This document shows positions 10,203-48,213 of a stretch of 64,000 bases of DNA, piece after piece. The stretch covers positions 22,094,266 through 22,158,265 of the forward strand of contig CP099852.1 in the NCBI GenBank assembly GCA_030062745.1. The letters are read 5' to 3'. The notes beneath the pieces are model-generated. The model was not told where the DNA came from, ran no database searches, and worked only from the letters and a program-made list of their open reading frames with translations. The DNA comes from Capitulum mitella. Taxonomy: Eukaryota; Arthropoda; Thecostraca; Pollicipedomorpha; Pollicipedidae. A program made the position numbers and the translations under genes. Position 1 is the stretch's first letter; every line of letters begins with the position of its first letter.

Positions 10203-13200
10203 TGCTGCCGCCTGCCGCCAGCCGGGAGCACTCGCGAGTGCCAGGGTGTTGTAAGATGTCGGACGGAATCACGGTGCAATAATGTCGAAATCCGTTTCGG
10301 GGTGGGTTTCCATGTATACGTGTCGGTACGACGAAGTTTTGTACGGGAAATTAGGAGGGATTATTTCGGCGAAATGTCGAAGGGATATTGCACTTGGGAA
10401 CTCTGCCGCTCATCGAGCTTTGCAGCTGCGTGCTGGGCAGTACCTGCCTACAGCGCGTTTGAGATTGTGCCAGTGTCATTGCGAGTTGAATGTATCGGCC
10501 GGATGTCTGGCCCCATTAGCCGCCCGCGCCGTCTCTCAGGTCTTTTTTATCAATCCCCTTTAGCTAATTTCGCTCGGACGTCAGTTTTATATCACGTCTT
10601 GTACACAGACTGTTGTTACAGTATGAATAGTATATGTGGATCCGTTGTTTGCCTGTTTCCTTGCGGTGTTTGCTCACATATACAGACAGGAAGCGTGTTT
10701 CCATTACCACCACACACACGCATAATTTCGATTTCGGTCGTCTGGCATGCTTACAAGTGACTCACACTTCACACGTTACTGGCTAATTTTAATCGAATGA
10801 AAGTGTACGCCAGTGCGTAGCTGGAAATGGAAAACTAATATGCACGTCACCTCGTGAAATGAGTGTTTTGGCGTTTAATCAAGTGCTCGTCGATGAGAAT
10901 CAGCGTCCAGTGACTGTTGATCCACTGTCGTGAGCTTTTCTGAAGATCAAGGGGAGCGATGAAACCTGCAGTCTGTAACGGGTTTTTAGGCCAGATGCGT
11001 GTGTTCGCCGGAATAAAAGCACGCCCGAGTTTTGACATTAAAGAGCGATGTCGAAGAACCAGGTTCATGGACTTAAAGGCACCTTGTCGATGAGCGGCCC
11101 CTGGAGTCCACGTGACACGCGGAAGGCCCCGGCGCTGTCAACTGCCACCCGTATGAGCAAAGCCCTCGATTAGTGCTCAGAGCCTCGTTGCCTGGAAGCC
11201 TGAACACACCAACCCGCAACCGGTGAGGGTACCTCGGACCTCCACTGCAACCGTGGAATGGCTGCTGTACTGCTGGAAAGGCCTGGTAGTCCTCGTGAGG
11301 CAGTCGTCATAACGGTGTCTCAACAATCGTTCATAAAACGCTAGCTCCTACTTAGTCAAACAGCTGGAGTCTATGGTCAAGTTAAGCCGCTGACCAGGCC
11401 TCGCAGCGGTAGCAGCAGCGCAGCAGACCGTTCCTCGTCGCCGTCGTAACGTGCATCGAGAACCAGGACAATGTGGTCTAATGCATGAGGCGTTTGTCGG
11501 GGGCGCGCGAGACTGTCAGTGCGTGCAACGCGCTGGCGCGTCAGGTTAGTAATTTTGTTTTCGTGTCCCGACATTGGTGAAAACAAAACGACAAAATGGA
11601 CACAGCAATTGTCACGCGTACTTTTACGTGTAGTCAGTGCGGACAGTGCACGTCTTCAGAACAATGCTTATAGGGTGCACACTGAAATCTATTTGTACGT
11701 TAGAACCTAAGCTGAGGGAAATGTGCTGCCGTTCCATAATCGGCGGTAAACTCATGATTCTGCGTGATAAATGGTGGACAATAATAAGCATTTAATAATA
11801 AGCAATACAAGCATTACAATGGGCGGTTGAATGAATACGTATAGGTTAACCACGACTCCTTTGTTGAAAGAACAAAATCTGGGCGTCGAATGACCTTGTA
11901 GTCGGTGCGCCCCTAAGCCCCAATAACCAGCCCAAGAACAAAATCACCGATTTCGCAGGGTAGTCATCGCGTGGAAAAAATTGGAGAACGAAATGCCGTA
12001 AGGTCTGAAAATTGAAAAGTACCCAACATTCTAACGTAGAGGTGTTACCTTCCTTTCCCCACGGCGAATTTCTGCGCATGACCGTGCCAGCTTAATCGCC
12101 ATCTTCAGGAACATGACGTTAACGTGCGGCAAATTTCGCCGACTTTCGGCGAAGGCCCGCACGGTTTACGACGGACCGCAGCATTGCCGCACCTCGCAGG
12201 GGACCAGAGGCAAGTCGCGTCTGCTCACGGAGAGAAGTTGGCGTAACCAGACGCGGCAGGAACGTCGCGCGCGTCACTCCTCGCGACTTCTCGGACTTGC
12301 CGCCGGGTGAATGCGCAGAACTGCCGGAACTGGCGCCCCCTGATCGCGCATCCCCAGTCGTACGACCCGAAAGAACAGCACCGCTTCACGAGGTGAACGT
12401 CACGGGGACCATGCCGCCCTGGTTTCTAGGGCTCTCCCAGCAGGGGAGGCGGGCCCGGGTCACGCACGCGGCCGGACCCGGGGAGCTCGGCCGCGACACG
12501 GGACGGACGCCGGCAGCGGCTCCCCGTTCCCGGCCCCGCCGCCAGTCGCCTCTCCGCCGAGCTCGCAGGCAGCTTCGACCCGATCATCCACCTCCCTCTC
12601 CGCCTCCGCAAACACGCCAGCAGCCGCCACCAGGTGGTTTACTGTCGGTCGGCGCGACGGCCGGACGCGTCCGCCCCGCCGGCCGGCCGGCGGAGCTGCG
12701 GCCGGCCGCACGCGCCACACGTCACCAGACTAAAACCCGAAACAGGCGGACACACAGCTACGTAAAGACGGCTCCCTAACTAAAGTAGCGGCGGCCAGCC
12801 GAAAAAAAGACGGCACAGATGTGTGTACTACGAGTCGCCGGTACGTAAAACGCCATACGCACGGTGCGTGGTGACGCTGGCATCCACCTCCGGGCACGTA
12901 TATTGTACAAACACACCACGGCACGTAGCACACACATCTGTACAAAATCCAGGCTACTAAATCCGCTGCGTGCTCCTCGCATGCGGCACGCGCCGCGGTA
13001 AGACGCACCGCGACTTAAACAGCGCTAAACTTACGACAGCAGCGGTGCGGCCGGCCGGGCGGCGGCCGCGGCGCCGCCGGCTGCCTCCGGCGGCGCCTTC
13101 ATTCGGCCGGTCGGCGCCGCGGCCGCCGTCCGGCCGGCCGGCCCGCCCCCCGCTCGCGACGGCCCGCACTGGCGGCGCCGGCGCCGTTTGTACTGGGTCC

Positions 13201-13219
13201 CTCGGCCGCGGCCGGCCCG
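10203..13219. other. Convergent 3' flanks of SLC25A10 and ATF4
   Basis: No coding gene recognised. Both genes point into this interval, so it should hold both 3'UTRs. On the plus strand AATAAA at 11012-11017 and ATTAAA at 11037-11042 could end SLC25A10. On the minus strand ATTAAA is present near 11790 and 10787 for ATF4. A short retroposon copy sits at 11880-11933. The 12.3-13.2 kb part is very GC-rich and has no repeat I can define. Confidence 0.5.
11880..11933 (+). mobile_element. Ultrashort SINE-like element, copy A
   Basis: A 54-bp body reading TGGGCGTCGAATGACC...GTGCGCCCCTAAGCCCC and ending in a short AACC-type tail. It is flanked by 12-bp direct repeats AAGAACAAAATC at 11868-11879 and 11934-11945, the signature of retroposition. 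This is the most diverged of three copies and its tail has decayed. Confidence 0.85.
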
Positions 13220-16200
13220 TCACACGGCGCGCTTGTGGCGCAACACCTCGCGCATCAGCTCCTTCAGGTAGGTCAGCTCCTTGGTGAGCGAGCCGACCCT
13301 GTCGCGCAGCTCCTTGTTGCGCGTCTCCAGCATGTCCTGGTCGCAGCTGATCAAGTCGTGCTCCTCCTTCTTCTTCTGGCGGTAGCTGCCGGCGGATGGA
13401 CGGGTCAGTGGTGCGAGGCAGGCTCGCGCCACGGGACGGGACATCGCAGCCAACAGGATCGTTCACGACGGCGCCACCGGTCACCGCTGGCACGAACGAG
13501 CGCTCGCCGTTCGTCAAGACTGCTAACACAGTTCTGCAGAGTCGAAACTTTCTGAAGCGCTCTCAACGTCAACACCACGACTCTACGTGTGTGAAATCCG
13601 CCACGTCGCCACGTCCGGAAAGGGTTGGAGTGACAGCGGTTTTCCGGGCTCTACGCCGATAACCGTGACGGTTTTCTCGTTTATCCTCCACACGGGCAGG
13701 GGAATTCCGTTATCCGGACATCACGTCCACGGCCCGAGGCGGTCCCAAATCCACGAATCAGATCGTCGTTCTCCGTCGGTGGCGTCACGCCCGCCCGAAC
13801 AGAACTGCGATAATCGGCACGCGTCCAGCACCAGGGTTGGAAGTATGTTTTTTTTTGGTGTTTAAGAACACCACAAAAAAGCGTGCTCCGAAAATATTTT
13901 ATGCTCCACAAGTTTAGTCTCGTGCCTCCATCAAACAGGCACATCATATCCATGTCGAGATTCTGTCCCCATTCAGTAAGAGGCAGGTGAGATGTCATAA
14001 CTGGCTTCTAACAAAAACGTCAACTTAAACCACTATTATTCCTCGCAAAGTTTTGTACTTCAAAACAACGATGATACTCCAATACCAAGAACAAAAACCA
14101 AACGTCCAACCCTGTCCAGCACGCCATCACTACAACCCGTAAACCTGTCCGAGCTTGTCGCGTCAGCGCCGGCCAGCGCCGTCTCCCCCCCCGCCGTACC
14201 GCGTGGCGGCGTTCTTGTTCTGCTCCTTCTTGCGCTGACGGCGCTCCTCCTCGGAGAGCTGCTGGCGGCGGACGGGCTTGTCGTAGGGCCGCGGCCGCGC
14301 CTGGCGGCGGCGCGTCGGCGGCGAGCCACAGGCGGGCGACCAGTCCGGCCCGGCGGCCGGCGCCGCGCCGCCGTCCGCAGCGCACGGCGGCGACGGCGGC
14401 TCGCCCGGCGCCCACGGCTCCAGCGACACCTGGCGGCCACACGGACACCCAGTGTCGTCATTCTGTTTGATACACGTGGCGCTGATGGATGACTGGCGAT
14501 TAAAGACCCGCCGGCTACGAGGTCGCATGGTACCAAATTTATTCTGGGTGTGCATCCGCGTGAAACCGGGACCATTACGTGTGCAAAAATAGCACTGTGG
14601 AAGAATCGCCAGCACCTACTCACGATGGAGGTGGTATCAGGAGTAGGACCGAGCACGGGAGAGGACGAGGACATGACAGCAGGTGACCAGCCGAGCAATG
14701 CTTTCGGCAAGGCGCCCCTGTCAGGCATGGAACATCTGCTGCAAGGGGAGAATAAGGGACACGACAAAAAAAAGAATCAGTGCGGTCGTTCCGGTGCTGC
14801 ACTTGATGCAAGGACTAGGGGAGGTGGAGGATTGAGAAGGTTTACAAATTTAGTACAAATGAATTCGCCAACCAAACTATTAACATACAAAACTCGATTC
14901 GATCGTTCGCAGTTGGAGCGTGGTGAAAACGCAACTTGCAGAAACATATGGAAGCCCTACAGACGCCTCCCCCTTCACTATTTCTCAATGACCGACAAGT
15001 ACGTGTGCAGAACAGTAACGAGCCTCGGCACTCGTGGCCAACGGACAAAGCCGCGGTGCAAGAAACCTCCGAAAGGTGGCGCGGAAAACTATCAGCCGCA
15101 CTGCGCACGGTCGGCGGCACACAACTCCGACCGCCGTACGATCTCCACCACGGCAACGGCAGCCCTTCGCGAGCACCGGCCGCCGCCGCCGCGGCGCGCA
15201 GATAGCCAGAACGGCGCCACGGCTGGCGCCCACGGCGGGTAAACATCAACACCGGAGGACGCCGCCGACGCTTCCGAGAACCGGCTCTGCCGGCGGCCGC
15301 GTCCGTCAGCCGGCCGGTTCCCGCTAATCGGTCGAATGCAGCGCCGCCGCAGCCTCCACCAGGCCGGCCGGCCGGCACGAGTTCAGACCCTCACCGACCC
15401 GGCGGACACCAGCCGGCGAGTTCAGACCCTCACCGACCCGGCGGACACCAGCCGGCGAGTTCAGACCCTCACCGACCCGGCGGATCAGACCCTCACCGCC
15501 CCGGCGGACACCAGCCGGCGAGTTCAGACCCTCACCGACCCGGCGGACACCAGCCGGCGAGTTCAGACCCTCACCGACCCGGCGGACACCAGCCGGCGAG
15601 TTCAGACCCTCACCGCCCCGGCGGACACCAGCCGGCGAGTTCAGACCCTCACCGACCCGGCGGACACCAGCCGGCGAGTTCAGACCCTCACCGACCCGGC
15701 GGACACCAGCCGGCCGGCCCGAGTTCAGACCCTCACCGACCCGGCACTCTTCAGACCGCCGTCACCCGGCCCGTTCTGGCCACCCAGCCGGTCCTCCCAG
15801 CCTGGGATCGATCCTCGCCGCCCGGGGTCGGTTCGGGCCGCGGCGGCGGCGCCGTCTCCCCGTCGGCGACGGTGTGGCTCGTCGCGCCAACAAACAAACC
15901 AACAGGCGAACCGAGCCAGGACGCGCCACCGATGTCGTCAGCCTGGCCGGCCGGTGTTCTCTCTCGCCACCTCGGCCTGGCCCGGGCCAGCGACGGCCAC
16001 CTGTTGCGTCAGACGGCGACCGCACCCCACGCCCACCCGTCACCCGCCTGACAGGGGTACCACTCACCCATCATCCGCCTGACGGGGTACCACCCACCCC
16101 GCCACCCGCCTGACGGGGTATCACCCGCCCGTCACCCACCTGACGGGGTATCACCCACCCGTCACCCATGCGACCGGGTAGCCCCGCCTACCACCTCGCC

Positions 16201-18155
16201 TTCGTCCGACTCATCCAGAGCGGCGTACCACCGTGGTATCCGTTCTCCGTCTGTGTCTGACCACCACCGCACTGGTCGGCGGTGAACACGCGGACCGCAG
16301 AGCGCTCCCTCGTGAAGGAGCATCCCACATCATCCACACACTGAGGCCGGCTGCGCAGAACGTGTGGCGCCCTGAGACCGCGCCCCGCGCCCCCCGGCCG
16401 GCCAGTGTTGCTGTCAGCGGCGGGACAGTTCCCGAGCTGCAGTACACAGGTCCCGCCGCCCCCGGTGACCCACGGCGCCAGGCGCGTTCGTCAGCGGTGG
16501 CGGCGGCGCCTCGCCCGACCCCGGTGCGTGGTTCGGCGCCGGCGGCCGCTGCCCGGTGTCGGGTACGGCCGTGTGTCGGAGACCGGAGGCGGGGGACCGG
16601 TGCTGGCGGCCGCTGCCCGGTGTCGGGTACGGCCGTGTGTCGGAGACCGGAGGCGGGGGACCGGTGCTGGCGGCCGCTGCCCGGTGTCGGGTACGGCCGT
16701 GTGTCGGGGACCGGAGGCGGGGGACCGGAGCCGGCCGCGGCCGAAACGAACGCCGTTCAGACACCTGAGGCCGACACCACAGCGACACTCATCTGCTGAG
16801 AATGAGGCTGAGAATGAAGCTGAGGCTGAACCGGCGTTGGGACTAGTGCTGGTACTGGTTTTGGTACTGGTACTGGTACTGGTAACGGGACTGGTGCTAG
16901 TGCTGGGGCTAGGGCTGGGACTGGAACTCGAGGTGGGGCTGGGGCTGGGACTGAGCTCGCAGTCCGGCCCTTTTCTCACCTGGTGATTCTGAAACCGGGA
17001 CTACGACTGAGACTGAGATCGCAGTGCGGTCTTCCTCTCGCCTGCCAAGACTGATACTGGACCAAGCCTGAGACTGAGACTGGGACCGAGACCATGGTCT
17101 TGGTCTAGACACTCGGTCCCGCGCTCACCTGCTGCTACTAATAATGAGACTGAGACTGAAACTGAGACCGAGACCAGTCACACACTCACCTGCTGCTAAC
17201 GATACCGAGACCAAGGCTGAGACTGAGACTACGACCTAGACTGAGACTGCGACTGGGCCTGAGCCTCAGACCAGGAGCGGCGCCCACCTGCCGCGGCGGG
17301 CCGGGGCTGACGCCGACGCCGAAGCCGGGCGGGGCCAGCAGCTCGGCGCCGGCGGCCAGCGCGGCTGGCGAGCACGCCTGCAGCTCGTCGCCGTCCAGCG
17401 GCGAGCCGCCGTCCGACGGCGACAGGCCGCCGTACAGCTCGGGGTTCTCGCGCACCGAGCCCGAGATCAGGTCCTCCAGCAGGGTGTTGGCGTCGTCGCC
17501 GGGCAGAGCCGGCACGTCCACGGCCGGGCTGTCCAGGAACAGGTCCTGGCGGGCACACGGCGGCGTTACACACGGCAGGCGTATCATCGCTCCGACAGGC
17601 AAATCACCGCCCGGCTGTCCAGGAACGGGTCCTGGCGGGTACACGGGCAGGCATGTCACCGCCCGGCTGTCCAGGAACAGGTCTTGACGGCGGCGTCACG
17701 CGCACAACACAGGCGGCCGTCTGTGGGACTCGGCCCGGAAGAGACGGCCTCCTGGACTCGGCTGTGATGGCAGTGGTGTGAGTCCACTGGCCGTGCCGAC
17801 ACCAGTGGCGGAGTCTTACGGTCTCCTGACCGTGCTGACACCAGGGGCGAGGTCTGAGGGTCTCCAGACTACGGTGACACCAGGGGTGGGGTCTGAGGGA
17901 GGGTCTCCTGACCATGATGACACCAGGGACGGGGTCTGACGGTCTCCTGACCATGATGACACCAGGGGGTGGGTCTGAACGTCTCCTGACCGTGCTGACA
18001 CCAGGGCCGCGCCCTCACCTGCAGGTCGTCAGGGATGCCGCTGTCGGCCTCGGCGGCCGGGCCCAGCGGCGGGAGATCGATCTCCGGCGGCGACGCCATC
18101 GGGTACTCCCAGGCCGCCGAGGGCAGCTTCTGCTCCATCCATCCCGCCAGCGGGT
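13220..18155 (-). CDS. ATF4: ATF4/ATF5-family bZIP transcription factor, shared 3' exons
   Basis: Stress-response bZIP activator; it acts in the nucleus as a dimer. Exons in transcript order: 18155-18019, 17545-17288, 14429-14200, 13385-13220 (stop TGA). All borders are GT-AG with matching phases, giving 263 residues from the split Asp codon at 18155. Residues near the start read PLAGWMEQKL, like the DWM.EK block of ATF4. Next comes ADSGIPDD, similar to the beta-TrCP degron. The third exon carries RPRPYDKP and the basic region; the join KNAATR|YRQKKK is the ATF4/ATF5 DNA-contact sequence. The zipper follows in the last exon with heptad residues I-L-L-L-L-V and ends EVLRHKRAV. The exon at 18155 begins in phase 1 (AC completing a codon), so at least one upstream coding exon exists; candidates are at 48214-48625 and 60481-61629. 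Confidence 0.93.
13845..14116. repeat. Dispersed repeat, copy 1, in the last ATF4 intron
   Basis: About 270 bp clearly related to 57245-57538. Shared stretches include a T-run followed by GTGTT...AACACCACAAAA, GCCTCCATCAAA, CATTCAGTAAGAGGCAGG and ATGTCATAACTG. On the minus strand both copies can be read as related peptides (FDGG...S.K.F.ST.F), possibly a remnant of a coding transposon or only conserved DNA. Confidence 0.8.
15379..15745. repeat. 39-bp minisatellite, about nine copies, ATF4 intron
   Basis: Unit GTTCAGACCCTCACCGACCC followed by 19 more bases. One copy is shortened (15482-15503 region). Because 39 is a multiple of three, all frames stay open and a spurious ORF crosses it. Confidence 0.92.
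16540..16740. repeat. 64-bp minisatellite, three copies, ATF4 intron
   Basis: GGGTACGGCCGTGTGTCGG recurs at 16561, 16625 and 16689, a 64-bp period with near-perfect copies. Confidence 0.9.
16830..17260. repeat. CTGGTA / CTGAGA hexamer-like repeat
   Basis: Simple sequence built from ACTGGT and ACTGAG words, decaying into mixed forms. It stops about 30 bases before the ATF4 donor at 17287. Confidence 0.85.
17521..17698 (-). repeat. Three tandem copies of the ATF4 exon start and its acceptor
   Basis: The true exon start (17545 downward, minus strand, CGCCAG|GACCTGTTCCTGGAC) is followed upstream by two related copies, centred near 17620 and 17675 and offset by 86 and 52 bases. The middle copy keeps the acceptor CGCCAG, but reading from it reaches TGA after 15 codons. 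The outer copy has AAG instead of CAG and would also reach a stop quickly. Confidence 0.85.
17800..18012. repeat. Minisatellite CTCCTGACC.TG.TGACACCAGGG, ending at an ATF4 donor
   Basis: Five degenerate copies of about 36-42 bp. The last copy touches the donor of the exon ending at 18019. Confidence 0.85.
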
Positions 18156-18169
18156 CTGTCGGAGACGCC

Positions 18170-18350
18170 ACACCGGTCAGCGGCCACCGGCCAGTGCGAG
18201 GTCACCGGCCACTGGCCACCGGGATATGCCACCGGTCACCGGTCAGCGGCCACCGGCCAGAAATTACTGGCCGGAGATAAGAGATCACTGGCCAGAAGGC
18301 GGAGGCCACCGGTCAGAGGTCGCCGGTCAGAGGTCATCGATCAGAGGTCG
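18170..18350. repeat. Degenerate CCACCGGTCAGCGGCCACCGGCCAG repeat
   Basis: Short irregular repetition of CCGGTCA and CCGGCCA words directly upstream (in gene sense) of the ATF4 exon at 18155. Confidence 0.6.
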
Positions 18351-20138: not shown

Positions 20139-20304
<166 letters not shown>

Positions 20305-21319
20305 GGAATCAGGTGCTGGGGACACCAAATATGGAGGGATAGAACAGAAATGCTAAGGAGCGGGAATCACAGGGGACACGTGGCTTGCCTTGCCGGGGAC
20401 CTCCACAAAGCATGCAAACGCCGCTTGCCATATTCGGACGCCGCCGCGCCGCAGAAGTCGGAAGGGATCTTCGATCAGACGCATCGGTCTGTAGCCAGCC
20501 ACCATCGCAGGAGAGCCTTGGGAATTCGGCCGACGGATGTCCACGCAGCACGTGTGCAGCGCCCCACCGTGCTGGGCCGGCGCAGCAGTCCCGCCCCGGT
20601 CTGGGTACCCTCAGCAGCGAACCCGATCACCGGCTTACTGCGACCGCGCCGCGACCCCACCGCCTTATCAAGGCGCGGCGTGTTCTCGAAAGTTCTGCTG
20701 CGCAGATGGCGAGTGTATCAACACTGTAGAAACTTCTCGAACTGTCTCGACCGTGTAAATCTATTTTTATAAACATGTGCCGGTGTGGTCGTTTGACATT
20801 TTATCCTCCCTTCTGTATCTACACGTAAAATGTCACTGTTCTCAGCAGCAATCTATTGACGCTACGCCTGTTGGTAACCTTGAGTTAACCCACCCTTCTG
20901 ACGTCAAGACTACTGGACGACGGAATATACGAATATACGTCATTCGTGTGCTTCGATGGCCGGACCCACCCAGAGCCGCTGACGTCAGACTAGCAAATAC
21001 CGCCACTGCTTGGTGCGACCACAAAATGTCGCCTAATGAGGCCCCATGAGTCGCGAGCGACAAGTCGTAGCACCGACTTCTGACGGACGGGTCTGCGTCC
21101 AACATCGGCACCTCGCGATCACCGGGAAAACTGCGCCCCCACACACAAACACGAAACGCCACACGGCCGGCGGGCCGTGATGAACACTATCGTAATAACG
21201 TCATAAACCAGGCACTTCAGGGCCAGAACTTCACGAAGAATAAACAAACCCATTGTGCATCAGCAACGGAACCAACGGAGCCTCCCACAGCTGGCCCCAC
21301 CGGCCAGGCTCCATCGCCG

Positions 21320-21645
21320 ACACCGACACCGGCCTGGCCTAGCCTGATGACACGTTGACACCGGCCAGGCCTAGGCCGCCGACACTGACACCGTCCAGGG
21401 ACGGCCCGCCGACACGCTGACATCGTCCAGGGACGGCCCGCCGGCACTCTGACACTGGCCGGGTCTAGCCAGCCGACACTCTGACACCGGCCAGGGACGG
21501 CCAGCCGACACCCTGACACCGGCCAGGGATAGCCCGCCGATACTCTGACACCGGCCAGGGATAGCCCGCCGATACTCTGACACCGGCCAGGGACGGCCAG
21601 CCGACACTCTGACACCGGCCAGGGACAGCCCGCCGACATTCTAGA
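21320..21645. repeat. 32-bp minisatellite (CTGACACCGGCCAGGGA...)
   Basis: About nine to ten copies; CTGACA recurs at 21545, 21577 and 21609, giving a 32-bp period. Confidence 0.9.
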
Positions 21646-22383
21646 CACCGTCCCGTCATCTGTCCCGTGTGCTCCCCGCCCCCGCTGGCCTCCGGACGCT
21701 CGCGGCGCCCGTTCCGGCGCTGACCCGGAGGCAGAGGACGCCCGGCGGCGGCGGTGGCGGGATGACCTGGCCGGGCCGCCGCGGCGTGCCGGGGCGGGGG
21801 CGGCCGCCGCCGATCGATCCGCCCGAGCGCGGCCGTACGCCGCCGGCCCGACGTACAGCCGGACAGCACGAGCCAGGCAGGGCCGGTCGATCGGCCACCC
21901 CGCCGCCGCCGCGGTCACGGCCGCCGCGCCGACCACGATCCGCCGCCAGGTACGGCGCGCACCTGCCGACCGAGGGCGCGGCACACGTACCGACAAGCGC
22001 CGCATTTCCAAATCGCGCTCCGGACGGATCGTCCGCGCTGCAGGCACGGCATCAGCTGCCCATTACCGGGGAGGGCGCTCGGCTCACATTCCCGCGCCGA
22101 TCAAAGGTCGAACTGAATACCGGCTACTTTCATATGGCATATCAAAGAGATCAGAAATAGCGGCCCCGAGCGCCGCCGCTGCGCAGCGCGGCGCTCGGCC
22201 GCCCAGCTGCCGCCTATCAGCCGTGCGTCACGTCCGTGACGTCACTACCAGACGACCGGCGGCCGGTGCGGCGGCTTGACGCGGCGGCGGCCGGGCAGCG
22301 GTCCCAGCTGTTCACCACCACGCACGGCCAGAGCCAGTCGCTCGACCACCACACGCGGCCGGCTGGGCGCTGGCAGGTTGTCG

Positions 22384-22413
22384 GGATCCACGGGCGCACG
22401 GACCCGTGGATCC
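22384..22413. repeat. Perfect 11-bp inverted repeat with 8-base loop
   Basis: GGATCCACGGG at 22384-22394 and its exact complement at 22403-22413, separated by CGCACGGA. It could form a short hairpin or bind a dimeric protein. Confidence 0.8.
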
Positions 22414-27705: not shown

Positions 27706-28677
27706 TGACCTGATCTGAGCGGGAGCTAATCTGAGACCAGAGGCACGAAAAGTGACGTCACGCAGGTCTGGCCTCTCGAGGCTGATGCGCCATGGACGGA
27801 GCTTGTGCTGCTGTCCTACCTAAGTTTACGCAGCACGCAGTTCGGTTTACAAGCTCGGAAAGCAGGGCTCATGTCGGTTCGAGAACGTTTTATACACGAA
27901 AGATTACTTTACGTACAACTTCGGCAACCAACTTCACGTCATTTTCTAAAAATCAATGTTGTGCAACCATCAGGGCATCTTCTTAAAAAGAACCCGTTTA
28001 CGCAAGGAAGACGACCCTAAATATCAGCATACGTCAGTTCACAAAAAACAGCCATTTTGCAATTCCACGTTCCAGCTAAACGTATTTCACATAACGCCTC
28101 TCTTTTTCGATAAGGGACTCTGCGACTCGACGCCACAGCAGCCGGTCCCGGTCGGCGGTCGGAGGCCAACTGCCGGTCGCGGCGCGCGTATCCCGTTCGG
28201 AGGCGAGGAGTCCGGTGGTTTGGATTACGTCAGTCGTACCACCGTCAGACTGGGACGGCAGCAGTCCACGGAAAGCTGCGTCCATGACCGAGGACACTGC
28301 GCAGAGGCCCGCTCCCAGCAGCCGGCACAGCAGGCAGGTGTGCGCCTCCCAGCGGCCAGCACAGCGACCCCGTCAGCTAGCACCATAGGACTTCTGGGTG
28401 TACCACGTGGGCCATGGTGTTCCACACCTCGAACAGGGCCCCAAAACACTTAGAGGTCAAGCTTTTTTTCAAAGTGATGGTGGGGCTGGGGTGATCTGTT
28501 CTAATCGGCGTCTTAAGACACCATGTTGCACCTTCCCAAATGATTCTGTAAGAATAGCCCCCCCCCCCAAATGTTCATGAACTTCCATCTCCGGCTTTTC
28601 TGCGTCACGCAAGCCTCAAACGGCAGCACGGGAGACTGCAAATCGGTATCAGTGCCATGGCGTGTACCAGCCAGAGG

Positions 28678-28740
28678 TTGGTTGGTTGGTTGGTTATTGG
28701 GGCTTAGGGGCGCACCGACTGCAGGGTCATTCGGCGCCCA
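28678..28740 (-). mobile_element. Ultrashort SINE-like element, copy B
   Basis: A 63-bp element. In its own sense it reads TGGGCGCCGAATGACCCTGC...GGTGCGCCCCTAAGCCCC, then a tail of four AACC units. It is flanked by direct repeats CCAGCCAGAGG at 28667-28677 and 28741-28751. The body can fold through GGGCG/CGCCC and CCGA/TCGG. Confidence 0.9.
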
Positions 28741-29029
28741 CCAGCCAGAGGTCATGGGATAGTAAGCCCCGTGGCGAGGCAATGGGACGCAGACACCCCG
28801 TAACGAGTGCCTTGGACTTCTGATAAGATTATCTTGGATAACGTATCACTGCAAGTCATACGGAGCTGCCAGGCGCTCCGCAATCATAAACAATCCGAAC
28901 ACTAACGAAGTGGTGTCATCACGAGAAAACCGGAAACTACGCGAAAAACAAACTTCAATAAACGTACTTGTCAAGCCACATGCGGGCCACATGGTCTAAA
29001 ACGGAAACAATGCTCGACATGGGAGATGA

Positions 29030-36149: not shown

Positions 36150-36365
36150 GCCGACGAGGACAGATCACCAGGGACATCCTGAGTCGCCAAGAACAGGTCA
36201 CCAGGGACGCCTGGGACTGAAGAGGACAGGTCACGACGGCCACCTGGGGCTGACGAGGCAGGGCGCATCCGGAGTCGCCAAGGACAGGTCACCAGGGACA
36301 CCCGGCAGCCGTCAAGGTCAGGTCGCCAGGGACACCCGGCAGCCGTCAAGGACAAGTCACGAGGG
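36150..36365. repeat. About 36-bp minisatellite (CACCAGGGACACCYGGCAGCC)
   Basis: Five to six diverged copies of AGGTCACCAGGGACRCC followed by TGAGTCGCC or CAGCCGTCA words. Confidence 0.8.
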
Positions 36366-37004
36366 ATCCCTGCCGGCCCGGAGGCGGTCGCAGGCGGCCC
36401 TCACGGCGTCCGGCACTCGGCCCGGGACTGGCAGCCTCGCAGCGTCCCCGAGAAGCGCTGCGGGTCGGCATTATTCAGCTGCGGTCACCAAACGGAGCCC
36501 AGTTTTCCCTGGACGAAGGCTGACACTGAATGTCCGGGCGGAGGCTACATGACGTCACTTCGGTCCTCTGACTACAAACGCCATAACCGGATGAAGGCTG
36601 CCCTTCTCCACCGCGGCGCTCGAGCGGCAACTGATCTTGACCTCGGTCGGCAGCGATATCACAGACATCAGTTGGTCGGTGGCCCGCGATGTGTCGCAGC
36701 AGCACCCGTCCGGCGGTGACACGCCGCCCCAGAGCCTCTCGCTGTCCGCCGCCGGCCGCCGGGGCCGGCTGGAAATCCGGCACCCCGTCCGACGCAGTAG
36801 CCAGCAGCCCGAGAGGCCCTCGGTCCGCAGACCCGGTCCTCCGTCCCAGCACAGGGCCCAGCACCCGGCCGCCCACAGCCTGCACTCGGCCCGGCCAGTC
36901 CAGACCGGCGGCGGGACTAAAAATAGCCGCCGGCGGGACGGTCGAACTGTCCGCGGCCGCACCGCCGGCCGTGATAAATGACCCGAGGTCGCCGGCCCGC
37001 CGCC

Positions 37005-37270
37005 TCCGCCCGGTAACCGAGGTCTGCCCGCCCGGTAACCGAGATCTGCCCGCCCGGTAGCCGAGATCTGCCCGCCCGGTAACCGAGATCTGCCAGCCTG
37101 GTAACCGAGATCTGCCCGCCCGGTAACCGAGGTCTGCCCGCCTGGTAACCGAGATCTGCAAGCCCGGTAACCGAGGTCTGCCCGCCCAGTAACCGAGGTC
37201 TGCCCGCCCGGTAACCGAGACTCTGCCAGCCCGGTAACCGAGATCTGCCAGCCAGGTAACAGAGACTCTG
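37005..37270. repeat. 22-bp minisatellite (GCCCGCCCGGTAACCGAGATCT)
   Basis: About twelve copies with few changes. Confidence 0.93.
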
Positions 37271-40090
37271 CGCCTCAGTACCCAGACGAAAACCGGCCTC
37301 AAACGGCGCTCGGCCGGTGCTGGCGATAAAACAGACAGCGCGCAGTCCGCGTGAGACAGACTCGGTGAGGATTCCGCGAACCTAAAGCGGCGCGGCGGCT
37401 GCGACTCAGTCAGACGCTGACACACGGAGGCGGAGGCGACACCGGCGGCGGCGTTTCCGGCACGGCAAACGGCTGCCGAACAGCCGGCAGGCCGCAGCCC
37501 GGCCCGTGCCCTGCTGGTCCGCTCATGTCCCGAGTGGACAAAATCCTGACCGGCTGTTTCGCGGCGATATCACAGTCTACAGCTTGATGCTCAGCATATA
37601 TCACAAAGCGTTAATAATGCAGACGTCCGGGCCCGCAAACTAGCACGAGACGGCGGCAATAAAACAATCCACGTCAACACGGAACGATGGATGCTGCACT
37701 GCCAGCAAAATGTGGGACTAATCTGAAAATGACGAGGTCGCAGCTAAGAACATCGAACCCTACGAAATGCGCCCGAATAAAGAAGAGATCGTAACTAAGA
37801 ACATCACCGTAGAAAATGCGCCCATTTCACGAATAACAGTTTTCATTCTCAAAACGGTTTAAAACGGTTTGGAAGAGTTTAGGTCGGCGCAATTCTTCAG
37901 TCCTTAAACAGATGGAATGTACTCGGTCTTGTTTGGAGAATAGAATCTCGAAAAGAATGGGTCCAAATCCAAATCAGAGCGGCACACATCTGCACTGTCT
38001 CAGACTTAAGCGCAGCATTAAGACTCGCCCTGTCGCCAAACCTTCCGCAATATCCAGCCGGCAGGCTGTTTCTAATTTCGGACCGAGCTCGCTGCTGGAG
38101 AGACCGCTGCAGGGGGGCGCACCTCCGGGTCTGTATAGTAAATACGTCAGCCGCGGCCCGACGACCTCGGCTGAAGCGCTGCCCGGCGGCGCCCCACCCG
38201 GGCCCGTCCAGGCGGCGCCGGCCGACCGCTGAGCCACCGCTCCGCCGGGACGGGCTGGCCGGCGCCGCCGGAGCGGGGCCGTTACCGTCCCCCGGGATCA
38301 AGACCGCCCGACGCCGACATCGACACCGCCACCAACACCCACTCACCCACCCAGACTCCCTCCAGCCTGCCCTGTCCGGGGTCAGTGACTACTCCCAGCT
38401 CCCTCCAGCTGCCCTGCCCGGCGTCTCGCCGGCCACTCCCGTCAACCTTTCCTCGGCGTGGTACAACTGCGCGGTACAATCGCCGGAACGCCACTCTCGG
38501 TCCGACCAACACTCCACACCTGCCTCTCTCTGCCGTACATTTCCCCGTACAGTTTCAACCAAGCCACCCAACAGAGCTGGTCTCTACGCCATCCCCTCCT
38601 TTCCCCCTCCAAGCGTGCCAGGGGCCACGTGATTTTCCACGGAGCAGCACCGCCCCTCTCGAGCGAGCACGCCGAGGCCGCGCTGCGTCAGCAACGGCCC
38701 GGCCGCCGGCCGCCGGCCGACCGAGCCCGACAGGTTCCGAGAACATCCGAACCCCCCCCGGCGGCCGGCCGTAGCCGCGGCCGACGTACGCCGGCGCCGC
38801 TCGTCACGCGACGCGTGGCCGCGCCGCCGTGTTTGCCCGGTCCGGCAGGTGTACTACCGGCGTAATCCGGGCCGCGGCGCCACTCGGACCGGACCGCATT
38901 CCGGCGAGCGAGGCCGTCCGCCCGCCGGGATTAGCGGCCGGCCGGCCAGGGCGCCGCGCCCGGTAACAGAGCCGGCCGCACGCGGCGCTGCAGGGCGCCG
39001 GCGGCCGGGGAAAACGGCCGCCGCCCCACACGAGTCTGGCGGGGCCGCCGCTCCGACCGTCCGGCGCGAGGAGCCGCGCCGACAGCCGACATTACCGGAC
39101 TGCCGTGCCCCGCCCGACCCTCGCCCTCTGCCGACGGCGGCGGCCGCCACGGGCGCGTCTCACGCGCGGCGGCGGGCGGCCGACGGCAGGCGCCCTGAGG
39201 AGCCCCCTGGACCGGGCCGCCGCCTCGGACAGGTCCGGCGGCCGCGCCGTCAGCCAGCGCCGGGCGGCGGCGCGGGCGCCAGTCGTCGCCTCGGCCGCTG
39301 CCGGCGGCTCCGAGCCTCATAAACATACGCCCCGGCCCGGCCGCGAAATGCAGGGGCGGGGGACACGGTCCGCGACCTGCATTCGGGGCTGCAACAGGGC
39401 TGAGCAGCGCTCGTCAGGACTGTCCGAGGTCGGACCCCGCACGCCACCTATTGACAGATACAAACACTACAGATGGCATGGTTCCCCGTCAGACGGCGCA
39501 GCACGCAAGGAGCTTCGGAGCTCGTTCGCCACGACTTTCACTCGCATCGGGTCCTATTCCGCGCGCGACCTAGTCATATCCTGCGGCCCGGACATCGCAG
39601 AACGCAGCGCGGCCGGCGCCGGCCCCGACCGTCTATCGCCGCTACCTTCTCCTGCTCAGCGCCGGTTCGACCTAGGCTTCAGGCCCTGGGCGAGCCCGGC
39701 GTCACCGCTGCCTGGACCGGCACCAAGTCCCGTCCCGACCGCGCAGCTCCCTCCCGACTCCCGGCTCCGTCGCCGCCGCGCCGGCTTCACGCGACAGCCG
39801 CCAGCGCCCCGCTCTGTCCGCGCGGCAGGGGCGGCGGCCAGCCTGCAGACCGCGCCAAGGACACCAGGCGGGCGCCTGCAGGTGCAGTGACGCACGAAAT
39901 TTCTCAGATGCAAACTGACGGCCGGCTTTCACCACAATGCTCCCTTCCTAGAGCCGGAGATTCGTGGGAAACTCTGAGCTTACCTGCAGCGATAACTGCC
40001 TCAACGTCGGTCTCACTGTTCAATTTTCCGGGCCATAGCATCAACGTTTCGGCAGTCAAGTGGAACCATGCAACTCAACCTCACCTGCCG

Positions 40091-40123
<33 letters not shown>
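40091..40123. repeat. (TCA)11 microsatellite
   Basis: 33 bases of uninterrupted TCA. Confidence 0.98.
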
Positions 40124-40283
40124 ACGCTCCGTCCGGAAAAGTCGCACTCACCTGCGGACAGAGAAAAACCGTAGTCAGGGCGTGCCATTAGTTTTAACAG
40201 TAACCGCTGCTTAATATCAAGGAAAAGGGCTGTATCGCCCACGAGTTAACGGGAACTGTCTTCGGTGTGACGGAAGAGAAATG

Positions 40284-40470
40284 AGCACTGCAACGTACAA
40301 ACCACGCCCGCAACGTACACATACAAGGCTGTATTTGGTGTAAACCACGCCCATAATTCGTGAAAACCACATCCGTGGTTTGCATAAGCCGTGAGAGAAA
40401 TATGCTCAATCATATCCTATACAAACCACGCGCGTATTTCGTACGAAACCAGCCCGTCACTTTTATACAA
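40284..40470. repeat. Cluster of AAACCACGCCC-like motifs
   Basis: AAACCACG or a close variant occurs about seven times in both orientations at uneven spacing of about 20-55 bases. It could be a decayed tandem repeat or a block of binding sites. Confidence 0.6.
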
Positions 40471-43400
40471 ACCCCGTCGGCTCATAAAATGACGTAAACC
40501 ATATACACAATCTTAAGTCCAGAGAACGTCGCGATGCTAAGTCAGACAACTGAGTCCAACAGACAGTCATGTCATACATTAAATGGGAACGGCATACATG
40601 CACGATGTCGTTCCATGGCAATCACAGTAAGACCGGGTAACATAAAATTGTGCGCCGTTTTCCCAAGTCATCTTCACAACTCATTATTACTGTGCGTATT
40701 GCCAAAAAAATACCGAGCTCAACACAGCAATGACATGTGGCCGTATTGAACAGGAAAACCAGCAACTAAGTAGCATTTGAAGAAACAAGAAGCATCCTCG
40801 AGAAGCCACGCATCGGGCTCAAAAGAAGATGACCATTTACGAGCTTAACACTAAACAATTTTTTTATTCGAACGAAAAACTGGGACGCCTTCTGGCTCCC
40901 ACTGGCTCAAACACACGGGCAAAGTAGCAGACGTCGAATTCTGTCACGCCAAGGTGAAGCCGTGGACGTCAGTTTCGACGACACACGTCAGACCACGGGC
41001 CCTTCCCGCCCACCGCCACCGCGACTGACGCAAGGACCAGTTTCTAAAGAGAGCTTCACCTTCGGCACAAAGCCGGAACAGATGATGAAAGCTCTTTTCG
41101 GCTATATCGACCTTCATATGATTTCCACGTATGTTGCTAGGGACGTTACAAGTCTACGTTAAGTGTTCTCTCTCTTTTTGTCTCGACTTTCCTAATTTTT
41201 TTTGCGGATTTCTTTGTACGTCATCCCCACAACTCTGCATCCTTCCATTTAACATGATCGCCATTCATATCCCCAGAATCGCAAAAATCGACAGGAATTT
41301 AATAACAATGCATACGCCGTGCCGAAAAGCATGGCACTATCGATATCATATCCGGAAAGTACCCCAATCCGTCGCCGATAAACATGTCTCGACGCACCAT
41401 CAATCAACGTCGGTTACGCAATCGGCGTGTCACGTCGGTGTCGTCCGGCCGCCCGGCTCAGCCGGCGCTCCGCACGGACGGCGCTCAGTCGGCGGTCCAC
41501 GGCCTCCGCACGGACGGCGCCGACCGCATCCGAAACCAAGAACGCTCCAGGGTTCTGCCATGAACACCACGGACCTTCCGTAGACCTGCGTCCTCGGGAG
41601 AGCCGGCTGGGCCGCCGGGGCCGCGCCAGTGCGTCCCGCTGCAGCCGGTCCACTGCACAATGCACAAGCACTCAGGTCCGGTTCACGGCCCGCCGGCCGG
41701 TGCCGCCGCCCCTGTCCGCGCCGCCTCCGGGAAGCCGCAACAGCACGGCGGCCGCCCTTGAGAAGCTGCCGTCGCGAGGCGGCCGGCTCCGGTTGCGGTC
41801 GCGGTCGCCCTCCCGTCTCGGAGCGCCGCCCCGCCTCACAGCCTCGGAAGCGCCAGCGACGGCAGGCCCTCCCGGCGGCCAGCGGCCAGCTAGAGCGGGC
41901 GTTACGTCAGCTGCCGCCCGGCGGCTCCGAGCGCCACGTGCCACCGGAGCGCGCCCGACTACCGGACCACGGCCGGTCACCGCCGGTCACCGTCCGTCTC
42001 CGCACGGCCCGTCCCGCGGCGCAAAACACCGCCTTCGCGACGGCAGCGGCCGTGCGATCCAGGCGCCATCTGGGGCTATGTTTGGGAGCGGGCATCGTGT
42101 CGGGTCCTCCGTGTGGCGCAGTGCAGCGAGCAATGAGCTGCGGGCAGAACACGAGGCGACGGCCGCTGCGTCACAGGTCTCCCTCGAGTGCATCGGCCCG
42201 ACGTCCTGTTAGGCTATCCCACTCCTGCGGATTAACTGATCCAAGTGTACTCCTCCGGATTAACTGATCCAAGTGTCGCATCAATCGAATGGCGCATCAC
42301 TCCAAAACCCGAAACGGAACTGAAAGCCTTAATGTCAGGAACTAGAGTTGCTGTTACTTGCTGATGCCAGTACATAACTATACAGACATTACTGCGACAT
42401 ACAAAACATTTCACGTATTCTCTTCAATTTCGAGCATTACTCCGTGGAATAATGACGCGGTCCCTTTCGGAGTCGCATGGTCCCGACGCAAAGTTTTGCT
42501 AGACGGCCAGCTGAAACGTCACGGCATCTATGCAACCTAATTTACTGGTCTAACGTATCGGGGTAATTTGAGCCCACAAAGCTGAAAAGAGATGAATATG
42601 ATCACATCTACACGGTCAAAACCTTCCACATCACTCAAGTTCAGCCAGCCAGCCAGCCATCGAGAATACCGGAAGCGGCCAGGATGGACCCTGTCGCTCT
42701 CCTCGTTCTCTGCGCACACGACTGGACAGCCAATCAGAGCCCGGAAAACTAGGACACCGCGGTCTGCCCGCGCCGCCGCCGTGACGAGCATAGCGGCACG
42801 CGCCACTCCGCACGTGGTATCGGGTGAGCGCTGAGTGGGCGCCTTGTGGTGCAGAAGCTCACAGGCAGTCTCTGTGAAATAATGTAATCTAAAACATCCG
42901 CTCTACCACTTCTTAGACATTCCCTTTACGATTTCGCTGACTTCATTTCGTTTCAAGCAAACATACCGATTTTGAGTGGAAAGATTTTATGAAGCAGTGA
43001 GTCTGCTTTCAATGAGGTGAGTGCAGACGGCACCTTGAAATTTGGCATACGGGCCATTCCAGCCCTACAAACGGTGTTATAAAACGTTCTGTTTGTTTGT
43101 GAAAACCTTGGAATTGTAAAAAAAAACAACACAACGATCGGCTACAATCATGCTAATTTATTCCGTCACCATGCGGGTGCAGGCATTTTTTGTTAGATAA
43201 ACTCAAGGGTGCCGCCGTCCACGCGGCATAAAGGCCGTGTGTCACAATTTGGCCGCCTCAAAGCCTACACCCGCCGGCCAGTAGTTCGTATCAGCACGGG
43301 AAACTCTGACTGTCACGAACTGAAAAGCCTGAGAACGCCCGGCCGCCGCTATAACCAACACCCGGAAAACCTCACAACATATCAACACGTTCCGCCTTCG

Positions 43401-44274
43401 GCTCAAGGTTTCCAGATATACGACGCCAGGCATGCTGGCCAGCCACGCCGCGAGCACGTGACACATGGCCCCATGCCTCATGTCGCCTCCTGCCTGGTCC
43501 ACGGCCAAACGCAGGAGCTGCTGCTTTCATCCAGCAGCGGCCTGATGAGGCCCGTCCCATCCAGCGTCGCTGAACGAACCAGACCGACCGCACTGATACT
43601 CGTAGTAACGAAGGAGCTCGCCGTCATCGAAAGATAACCACGTGTCCAGTAATGTCCCATTCGTTTCCTTCATCAACCGACAACCACTGTCATCTCACAT
43701 TTGTCTGTACGACAATCGGCCGATCACCACGCCTCGCGGCGATCACAACCCGCGTGCGAGGACGTCCCGCAGCCACGCCGCCCGGCCGAGGCAGGGCAGC
43801 GCCGGCACCGCGTAAACAGCCGGCGCCCGCACACGGCGAGCGGCCCGGGACGGCCGGGCCGGGGCTCGTCACCAGGCAGGCGCGGGAGGACGCGCCGGCC
43901 GAGAGCGCCAGGACCGCCGGGAAACGCTGTGACGGCGCGCGGCGGCCGCTCAGGGTTTAACCGGCCGGTTTTACTGGCCTCAGCGATGTACGGACAGAAG
44001 CCGCTGCAGTGGGAGGTCGTGCGTGGCCCGACGGCGGATCAGAGGATCACAACTGACCCGGCTGGACCAACCGGTCCGAACGGTGTCAGATCGCTTCGCG
44101 AGACAGCCGTGGCAGGCATTCGCGTCCACCTGCGTTACTCTGAAGAACGGGACGTTGAACCGAAAGGCGAGTGCGTGCACGGAGAGCAACTGTTGTTGGA
44201 CCGACACTAACCGATAGCCGAACGGTCTGAGCAAGTATGGCTTGGCAACTGGGCATTCCGAGCATATACGACCG

Positions 44275-44400
44275 ACAGTCCAGGCAGATGTCACCAGACA
44301 GCCGGACATTCCGGGCAGATGCAACCTGACAGCCGGACATTCCGGGCAGATGTGACCTGACAGCCGGACATCCCGGGCAGATGTGGCCTGACAGACATAA
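44275..44400. repeat. 31-bp minisatellite (CAGCCGGACATTCCGGGCAG...)
   Basis: Four copies of a unit with the core GACAGCCGGACATTCCGGGC. Confidence 0.9.
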
Positions 44401-44689
44401 TCTGACAGCAAGGTAGGTCCGGTGCGGCCGGTCTTTCGGCTCTATTCCACGGACCCCAGGACAGTTTTGACAGCGGGCGGGGCGGGCGGCGCGGGCCAGG
44501 CACGGCCGGGCGCCGGCCAGCAGGTGCCGGTCTGACACCCTCCGAGCGAGCCATGGGTCAGCCAAAGGTCGCCGACCGGCCGCCGGTCCAGTTCAGCCGG
44601 ACTCGGGCAGCGCGGCGACACCGACGGCGACCGGCGAGCGCGCCAGACCCGAGCGGCGAGCACCGAGCTCACCGCCGCCGAACTGTGAC

Positions 44690-45075
44690 CGAGCTACGGA
44701 CACCGCCTGGCTAAACGGCAGCTACACGGCAACGCTACGGATACCGCCTGGCTAAACGGCAGCTACACGGCAACGCTACGGATACCGCCTGGATACACGG
44801 CAGCTACACGGCAGCGCTACGGATACCGCCTGGACACACGGCAGCACTACATATGTACAGCATACAACGTTACACTGGCCACACGGCAGAGCTGCAGATA
44901 CTGCCTGGTTACATGACTAAGCAGAAGATACTGTCTGACAACAAAGGAGTGCACATCGCCTACCGATACGGTAGGAGCATAAACAACGCCTGAATACACG
45001 GCAAAGCTACATGTAAAGCCTGTCTACATCGCTCGGCTACGTATCAACCACGGCTACACGGCAGAACTACATACA
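44690..45075. repeat. 41-bp and derived minisatellite (CTACGGATACCGCCTGG...)
   Basis: Three good 41-bp copies from 44690, then increasingly diverged relatives (GCAGCTACACGG, CTACAT...GCCTG) to about 45075. Confidence 0.85.
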
Positions 45076-46734
45076 AAGCCTGTTTGTCAGTGGCGCTGCA
45101 GTTACAACCTAACCGAACTACATGGCTACCGACGCGGCCTGGCTACAGGGTGGGGCTACTTCACAACTGCCAACAGCTGAGCAACGCGACCTTCGCCCTT
45201 CCCAAGCCCCGTTATAAAACAGCACCTAATCTCAGCGCTTGCCCACCTTGAGACGTTGGACGCGAGTCAGCCTCTGCAGGTGGCAAATGAATGCGTCTCG
45301 GTGGGACTCCTCAGACCGCGCGGTAAAGGTCACGTGCTTGGTTCGCGCCGAGCTTCACGGGCCGCCAAACCGCTTTCACTACGAGCTGGCTGGGAAAGCC
45401 GGCCATCCGCCTAAAAACCTGCCGGCGCCGGGTGTTCCGCGTGACCGGGCTGCCGCCGCCAAACTTCCTTCCAGTTCCAGTTCGCGCCACTGCAGCGGGA
45501 TTTCCGACCAGTGCATTGGCCGAAAACTGGATTCCCGGTTTCATGCACCGTCTAGAGGGTTGGAACTCCCCCGCAACACGGGCCCAGTGCCAAACAAACG
45601 CTGGCCGGCCGCCTACACCAGGTCGGCCGGGACTGGCGGTTGGTTTGAGGACCACCAGGCCGGCCGGGACTGGCGGTTGGTTTGAGGACCCCAGAGCCGC
45701 CGGCGGTGAAGACCGAGTCCGAGTGGCGGGGCGTCCCTCGCTCGGCTGATGGGGACGCCGATAGGGCGTGCTCGGCCGCAGTCCGACGGACCGCGGCCGG
45801 AGAAAGGTCAGGCCCGCTCGCGGTGACGTCTCGTCCCGAGGCTGAGCTCGCACGCTCCGGGTCAGCGGCGAACACCTGTCTTAGCGCGCATCCTGACTGC
45901 AGGCAGTGTCGAAACGGACAGATCGTACATTATTTTATCATCCTGACCGTCGCAAAAAGTGGCCCTGGGTTAAACTTCGCCAAAAAGGCTAATCTATCCA
46001 CCAAATGACCTTTCACCTTTCTCAGGACATCACATGACCTTTGGACTTTCTTAGGCCATCACATAGCCACTTAAGTTTTCTACTCATGATGCAAAATCTA
46101 ACCAGCAACTTAATATAAACTCTGGTTCAGCCACCTGCCAAGCTTTATTTGCTACAAGCACATTTGTACCCGAAAAGATACGAGTGAGCAGGAACGGAAG
46201 CTAAAAATTAACCGTTCATTTGAATGGGGTTAAGCAAAGCATGACCTACATATCATTACATCGATGGAGTTCTCTTGTCAGCTTCTTGGAAGTCATGTCC
46301 CGAAAAATTTAAATATGAGCCTAAAAACAGTGCCTGTTAACCACCTCTACGAACCACTTCATGGCGTCACAATACCAGACCAATGACGGACTTTTTCTTC
46401 AGTCGCCTTCTTTGTCGCATGGCAATCGCTGTGCCGTTTAGGCTGGCTCACCGGAAATCTGAAGCCAACTACTTTTGTTCGTTTGAAAATTCGGTGAAAA
46501 AGCCAAAGACGCCAACAAAACGCCCCAGCCACCAGCGGGACAAAACGCCGCCACGCCCCGGTAAACAAGCCACATCTATTTCTTACGCGCGAAATACGGC
46601 TCTCTATTTGTTGACACTCACAAAAAGGGCACGACGAAGATCTCCACTTTGCAATTCAAACATACCACCCACTGGTAATCATAACAGACCAGTTTTGTAT
46701 CAAAACACTACTGTTGTTTTCGGCGCGGTGCCAG

Positions 46735-47025
46735 CAGTCAGTCGACTGTCGCGTCAGCAGAGATCGCCGTCAGTCGACTGTCGCGTCAGCAGGGATCGCC
46801 GTCAGTCGACTGTCGCGTCAGGAGGGATCGCCGTCAGTCGACTGTCGCGTCAGCAGGGATCGCCTTCAGTCCACTGTCGCGTCAGCAGAGATCGCCGTCA
46901 GTCGTCTGTCGCGTCAGCAGGGATCGCCGTCAGTCGACTATCGCGTCAGCAGGGATCGCCGTCAGTCGACTGTCGTGTCAGCAGGGATCGCCGTCAGTCG
47001 ACTGTCGCGTCAGCAGAGATCGCAC
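46735..47025. repeat. 32-bp minisatellite (GTCAGTCGACTGTCGCGTCA...)
   Basis: About nine copies of a 32-bp unit with the GTCGAC palindrome in nearly every copy. The copies are very alike, which suggests recent expansion. Confidence 0.95.
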
Positions 47026-47481
47026 AGCGCCCGCCCACCAGCCCAGACCGACCACAAGGAGGCAGCAGAACCGTGAAGCAGGTCGGCACAGCCTTGGCAC
47101 GGACCCGTGAGATATTTCCGCGCCGGATCCCGACCCGGGCCACAACCACCGGAAACATGGCCACTGACAGCAGCCTCCAGTCAGCACGCCCCACACGGTC
47201 AGCTCGCCAGAGCTCCCACAGGCCGAGCACTGTGACAGTGGCCGTGTTCCCCGCGTTTCCCGCGCGGCGCACGTGCGGCGGTCGCCCAGCTGACCGCGTC
47301 TCGTGCGACATGACACCTGGATGTGGTCGCCTGACACCAGCACGGTGACCACAGTTGCCATTTCTTGGACACAGACGTCCTGTCACCGCTGCAGGTAGCT
47401 CTCATGACTCAGGATCTACACCTGGTTTGAACGTGGGGCAGCGCACGAAGATTAAATGTGAATCACATTGGTCCCTTATGG

Positions 47482-47540
47482 TTGGTTGGTTGGTTATTGG
47501 GGCTTAGGGGCGCACCGACTGCAGGGTCATTCGGCGCCCA
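47482..47540 (-). mobile_element. Ultrashort SINE-like element, copy C
   Basis: A 59-bp element almost identical to the copy at 28678-28740, with a tail of three AACC units. The target duplication GGTCCCTTATGG is present at 47470-47481 and 47541-47552. Confidence 0.92.
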
Positions 47541-48213
47541 GGTCCCTTATGGGCAAAAACGGTATGGAACCAAGGGTCTTCAAAACGTTTCGGGCCACAA
47601 AACGCCACCACCACACATCGGATCTAGGGCCTTCCAACTAGAACATGCCGCAAAACGTCATCAAGCCCACGTATTTCCCGCGCATTACCATGTGGCAACC
47701 CAATGGTCGGGTTACAGGTGAGTATAATGCAGCAGCAAAATCGCGCGGCCGAACGTGGCTCTGCCGCTCGAACGGCCACGTCTGTCTCGCGATTGGCCAG
47801 CGGTGACGATTGATGACGTTTTATGACGTATGCATGACATTTACGCCAATCAGCGATCGTTTGGAATACGAAGCCCAAACAGCGACAGATCCAACCAACC
47901 CATGCCTTCTACACTGAACGAAAACGCCAGATTTAAATTTTCTCTGGTCGGATTACAGATTCTGAACTACCGCATTCGACCAATGTTGGCGGGACTATGG
48001 TTATGAAAAGTATGACGTACATATGACGCACGCGAACACGTGACGTCGTCTTTCAGCTGTCGCAAGACGCGGTCGCCCTGCCGCCGCAGCGGACAAAGTC
48101 GCTCGTGTAAGCTGGCATGATCACTGCCTGGCTGTTCACATCCGCGGCCTGCGCCGCCGGCCGCCGACTCTGATGATCTCAGCGGCCGCCGGCGCCCCGC
48201 TCTGAGCACTCAC

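Follow-up and report, generated by a model that had tools for sequence, protein, structure and literature searches.

Dispersed short retroposons corresponding to the 3' end of a LINE in Capitulum mitella

The 64,000-nt stretch of Capitulum mitella DNA analyzed here (the window) contains three copies of an element of about 60 bp, and these raise the question of how so short a unit comes to be inserted and what it derives from. The three copies lie where the preliminary description placed them, and each consists of a body of ~47 bp and an (AACC)n tail, which differs in length between copies as had been noted; we refer to this unit as a stub. A different direct repeat of 11-13 bp had been reported for each copy, and we find a 12-bp target duplication at each of the three. 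The features, read directly from the sequence except where another source is given, are as follows.

11868..11879, + strand: left target duplication of element 1, AAGAACAAAATC
11880..11933, + strand: element 1, a 3'-hairpin stub with loop type CTTGTAG and tail AACCAGCCC (sequence reading; motif search)
11934..11945, + strand: right target duplication of element 1, AAGAACAAAATC
28667..28678, + strand: target duplication of element 2, CCAGCCAGAGGT, with GGT common to the tail
about 28679..28740, - strand: element 2, a stub with loop type CCTGCAG and an (AACC)n tail (sequence reading; motif searches)
28741..28752, + strand: other copy of the element 2 target duplication, CCAGCCAGAGGT
47470..47481, + strand: target duplication of element 3, GGTCCCTTATGG
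47482..47540, - strand: element 3, a stub with loop type CCTGCAG and an (AACC)n tail (sequence reading; motif searches; folding)
47541..47552, + strand: other copy of the element 3 target duplication, GGTCCCTTATGG

The inner edge of element 2 is ambiguous, as the GGT of its target duplication overlaps the tail. Element 1 matches elements 2 and 3 in reverse complement, with 87% and 89% identity, respectively, over 61-63 nt. Within the window, a 16-mer allowing up to three mismatches has six matches compared with a shuffle mean of 1.29 (six being reached in 2 of 100 shuffles), and a second motif has six compared with 3.46 (reached in 18 of 100 shuffles). These window-only statistics are weak, and it is the genome-wide counts that decide.

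Abundance and discreteness of the unit

The genome search with the body that the preliminary description proposed was run with the 16 bases at its 5' end, TGGGCGCCGAATGACC, which have 1,472 exact matches (754 forward and 718 reverse) in the 477,042,490 bases searched, contained in 16 contigs. The 3' motif AAGCCCCAATAACCAACC has 1,400 exact matches (721 forward and 679 reverse); the backwards control gave none in either search, and the match counts may be lower bounds. We read, with their flanks, the first 90 of 100 places listed among the 1,400 matches to the 3' motif, all of which are on contig C1, as are all of the short copies that were fetched other than the three in the window. A target duplication is present at the expected 5' boundary in 74 of these 90 copies, all of them full-length units, with 67 flush with the duplication and 7 having one or two bases between; in three of the non-flush units (L022, L029, and L034) there is an extra A at the junction, and A is also the next base of the LINE described below. 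The other copies are four LINE ends (L023, L035, L056, and L063), six that are full-length by alignment with no duplication found at the boundary (L013, L015, L024, L031, L036, and L100), and six that are incomplete or diverged (L059, L072, L081, L093, L098, and L099), some being truncated inside the body. For L013, a 9-base duplication appears if the start is set 5 nt inside the body.

The duplications in the 3'-anchored copies are 8-17 bp long, with a mode of 13. In a 5'-anchored and deduplicated set of 81 short copies, which includes those in the window and overlaps in part with the 3'-anchored sample, target duplications are present in 73, compared with 2 of 399 mispaired left and right flanks; most copies thus have flanking repeats, whose absence from most copies was what the preliminary description had named as fatal to its proposal. 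Among 70 copies, the bases preceding the left duplication tend to be TT and its first bases CC or A, which looks like pairing between primer and tail. A repeat tail of variable length lies beside the target duplication, as expected of a retroposon, and dispersed copies with target duplications are also a property of SINEs. With more than 1,000 dispersed copies, target duplications, and a variable tail, the initial proposal of insertion by reverse transcription is well supported.

Three of the loci have individual features. Stubs L045 and L046 (C1, about 9.054-9.058 Mb) are ~4 kb apart in opposite orientation and have an identical target duplication, indicating that an inverted duplication of the locus followed the insertion. 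At L081 (C1, about 21.967 Mb), there is a possible insertion of little beyond the last bases and the tail, lying between CCAACCAATCA repeats by eye. An older and diverged inverted stub seems to adjoin the stub in L024 (about 1387-1450), whose left flank contains GTCATT and TCGGCGCCCA.

The parent LINE

Two of the longer copies, L023 and L035, have 1.27 kb in common at 87% identity, running into the body. A third, L056, is also a LINE copy, with 99.4% identity over 1,270 bp to L040 (which holds L035), and its LINE sequence, as judged by eye, starts directly behind one member of a 15-bp duplication. LINE sequence is present upstream of the body in eight further LINE-junction loci (L102-L109), so that a 3' end common with a partner LINE, as SINEs have, is found at all of these places. 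Pfam searches of translated pieces identified RNase_H in L035 (E 3e-10), and Exo_endo_phos_2 (E 3e-20) and RVT_1 (E 7e-29) in L112. The ORF1 piece of L112 has a zinc-knuckle-like stretch by eye and matched no Pfam family. A full-length LINE was also sought in L110, which is a truncated copy, and in L111, which lacks LINE reading frames. The domains found, an apurinic-type endonuclease, reverse transcriptase, and RNase H, are those that define a LINE with RNase H, which, from its domain order, we take to be in the I-like group.

As judged from these alignments, the unit is exactly the last ~47 nt of an EN/RT/RNase H LINE, plus the tail. The comparison of the tail with LINE 3' ends, as originally proposed, shows body and tail to be continuous with the LINE 3' end. 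The earlier suggestion of a 3'-end parasite of a LINE is close to this picture, the body being the extreme 3' end of the LINE itself. The contrary prospect, that the copies would prove to be pieces of a longer element, holds to the extent that the stub is the terminus of a LINE; the stub is nonetheless a discrete unit with a nearly fixed 5' end of its own.

The LINE junction GAAGTTATGGGCGCC has 130 exact matches in the genome and the LINE-type junction AAGTTATGGGCGCCGAATGACCNNNNAGTC has 142; with 1,472 body 5' ends, short units outnumber LINE-type junctions by about ten to one, counting exact matches only. There is also a rarer second 5' end, 7 nt upstream (-7), at which CAAGTTA or GAAGTTA precedes the body and no further LINE sequence is present. 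The target duplication ends exactly at -7 in L024, L136, L154, and L157; a gap of 2 nt is needed for L164 to fit this end, and L155, L161, L162, and L165 are ambiguous. Among CCTGTAG copies with AAGTTA, of which 9 of the 12 listed were fetched, LINE sequence is present in four (L158, L159, L160, and L163) and absent from five. We note that, among those listed, LINE-type junctions are clustered in C4 at 3.02-3.08 Mb (six), C5 at 12.76-12.86 Mb (seven), C8 at 9.39-9.44 Mb (eight), C10 at 9.58-9.63 Mb (seven), and C14 at 6.05-6.16 Mb (six), resembling what a centromere-associated LINE might show.

No source RNA for the stubs emerged from tRNA and Rfam scans. A tRNA scan of the window found none and Rfam at gathering scores found no family in it. 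At relaxed thresholds, Rfam gave two chance-level matches for copy 3 (E 4.5 and 5.7) and none for the LINE 3' end. The further suggestion of a retroposed small structured RNA thus gains no support from the tRNA scan or from Rfam, whether for the window, copy 3, or the LINE 3' end. No known Rfam ribozyme, the mark of an R2-type SIDE, was found at the stub or at the LINE 3' end, and the 3' motif has no match in viral contigs. At the 90 3'-anchored places, we read the flanks for a SINE combining a tRNA head with this tail and saw none. The copies begin directly at the hairpin, with no tRNA, 5S, or 7SL head carrying a polymerase III promoter, and because neither head nor promoter is seen in the flanks that were read, the unit is not a conventional SINE.

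Origin of the stubs

We favor the explanation, to which we assign a probability of roughly 0.7, that the stubs arise from LINE machinery that repeatedly retroposes its own 3' hairpin, with no promoter in the copied unit. It is supported by the observations that stub and LINE have their 3' end in common, that the stubs carry target duplications and have a fixed 5' end, that LINE copies themselves are truncated at scattered points, and that most stub variants match variants of the LINE. Against it stand the loop type TTGT (discussed below), the existence of the second 5' end at -7, and a body hairpin no stronger than its shuffles.

The main rival is that the stubs are an independent short SINE-like family, in which one or a few source loci use neighboring promoters to make an RNA of ~60 nt starting at TGGGCGCC or at -7, and borrow the LINE machinery through the common 3' end. 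We consider this improbable, although it would account readily for the fixed 5' end, the clean junctions, and the tenfold excess of stubs over LINE junctions. The loop variants bear on it in both directions. Among the 84 stubs fetched, the loop types are CTGC (58), TTGT (8), CTGT (5), TTGA (4), TCGA (3), and others (6), and among the 100 LINE-type junctions listed, which include some of the -7 form rather than of LINE, they are CTGC (76), CTGT (12), TCGA (4), TTGT (2), TTGA (2), and other (4). The CTGC, TTGA, and CTGT loops are also found in copies with upstream LINE sequence, and the TCGA loop occurs with an AATC-type tail both in all three of the stubs and, with small changes, in all four of the LINE copies listed (L104 and L151-L153). 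By sequence comparison, the stub variants CTGC, CTGT, TTGA, and TCGA thus have LINE counterparts, with a linked tail change in TCGA, and the dominant stub body is identical to the body of recent LINE copies. Both are at odds with an independent family, as is the lack of any tRNA or known small-RNA head. The TTGT type, to which window copy 1 belongs, is what keeps this explanation alive; no LINE parent is confirmed for it, and both of the listed TTGT copies with AAGTTA upstream (L154 and L155) have at most a few bases of LINE, so that the TTGT type may be its own lineage.

Far less probable is ordinary 5' truncation, which would make the stubs simply the extreme short end of randomly truncated LINE copies. 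Stubs and truncated LINE copies do have the same 3' end and the same kind of target duplication, and some copies are cut within the body (the six incomplete ones among the 90). However, the two differ in where they start. At 20 LINE-junction places on C2-C5, 11 copies extend at least 325 nt upstream, judged by BLAST edges, and the other nine stop at about 7, 57, 79, 88, 118, 119, 194, 227, and 250 nt. Scaled to the 130 LINE junctions, this scattered truncation corresponds to ~0.18 starts per nt, compared with on the order of 1,300 copies starting at one dominant base, and the stub end is therefore not the tail of random truncation. As a class for the stubs, random 5'-truncated LINE copies were likewise rejected, because in place of scattered 5' ends there is one boundary, with a duplication in 74 of the 90 copies. 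Least probable of all is a DNA-mediated hairpin element (MITE-like) rather than a retroposon, which would suit a short body with a hairpin but not the variable length of the target duplications, the directional tail of variable length, or the continuity of the body with the LINE 3' end.

The 5' end, the proposed mechanism, and known systems

How retroposition of its own 3' hairpin by the LINE machinery might give one dominant 5' end is suggested in part by the junctions. At the 67 flush junctions of deduplicated short copies, microhomology of at least 1 nt is present at 16 (24%, with ~25% expected by chance) and there is none at 51. As junctions without excess microhomology would be expected if the RNA end had been cut or trimmed, we favor this as the source of the 5' end over a reverse transcriptase stop at an upstream hairpin.

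The predicted RNA structures are less telling. The small hairpin described initially for the body is predicted for all three copies (-15.3 kcal/mol for copies 2 and 3, and -13.7 for copy 1), and the proportion of shuffles folding at least as well is 22/200 for copy 3, 9/200 for copy 2, and 40/200 for copy 1; the predicted hairpin is thus not exceptional, being not significantly stronger than shuffles of the same base composition. In 20 of the 21 deduplicated LINE 3' ends, folding predicts an upstream stem formed by a CGUGAC-like arm and AGUUAUG, with its 3' arm fixed by the search pattern (L120 lacks the prediction and L104 is outside the pattern). It ends at about the first base of the stub, although the piece folded was short and allowed the start of the body to pair with upstream bases. 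Among the 21 LINE 3' ends, no compensatory changes in the stem were seen. The upstream stem serves as a hint only, according to which the dominant stub end would fall between two predicted adjacent hairpins.

The simplest scheme is that the last ~47 nt of the LINE, namely a GC-rich hairpin and a short linker, are reverse-transcribed with the (AACC)n tail and inserted, with the 3' hairpin most likely recognized by the LINE's own protein. Synthesis would be by target-primed reverse transcription, starting from a nicked target at the tail, copying 47 nt, and terminating at one dominant base where the template, or the progress of the enzyme, ends at the meeting of the hairpin with the upstream hairpin. 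Stubs would be copied repeatedly, with LINE transcripts or 3' pieces of these as templates, and would need neither a promoter nor coding sequence of their own. A more specific version is that the LINE gives rise to a minimal retroposon complete in itself, a 3' RNA fragment of ~47 nt plus tail whose 5' end is set by RNA structure (the part of LINE mRNA that a protein shields or that resists nucleases), and which the LINE enzyme inserts at about ten times the frequency of any longer piece; we offer this tentatively, as something that may well not hold. If it were true, then the genome would record the smallest natural substrate of a LINE, and promoterless tails would be amplified without ever being transcribed alone. 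The stub would provide a natural readout of the part of the LINE RNA needed by the protein, and of where the template ends, and would explain one source of very short and precise insertions that repeat annotation could miss. We found no description of such a 47-nt unit in open-licence PubMed Central texts using narrow search terms.

SINEs are usually composed of a head and a tail, and the tail alone seems to be sufficient here. The tails of tick and mollusc SINEs have a hairpin, a C-rich linker, and short tetranucleotide-like repeats, a layout seemingly similar to that of the stub; these SINEs carry a tRNA-related head, unlike the stub. In zebrafish LINEs, the enzyme has been shown to recognize its own 3' hairpin (PMC4176376). 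The stringent-type SINE-LINE pairs of, for example, zebrafish (ZfL2) and eel (UnaL2), described in the same source, resemble the stub in that a 3' hairpin and a short repeat tail are common to the LINE and the short element, and in mobilization in trans by target-primed reverse transcription, a process that we infer for the stub. The stub differs from those SINEs in being headless: its body of ~47 nt is the tail alone, and no polymerase III promoter is seen. The Drosophila R2 SIDEs (PMC3414825) are similarly short non-autonomous LINE derivatives that retain the 3' end. In that account, the 5' end of a SIDE is set by a 5' ribozyme, whereas the stub has no known ribozyme match, and SIDEs occupy a fixed rDNA site, whereas stub sites are dispersed.

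The window contains other repeats in addition to the stubs. Many minisatellite arrays with periods of ~22-39 bp are located in GC-rich sequence, at 46702-47087, 36962-37286, 21350-21701, 15329-15742, and 8192-8375. At 6390-6609 there are three tandem copies of a 71-bp stretch (identities of 100% and 97%), which from its translation seems to belong to a mitochondrial-carrier-like exon.
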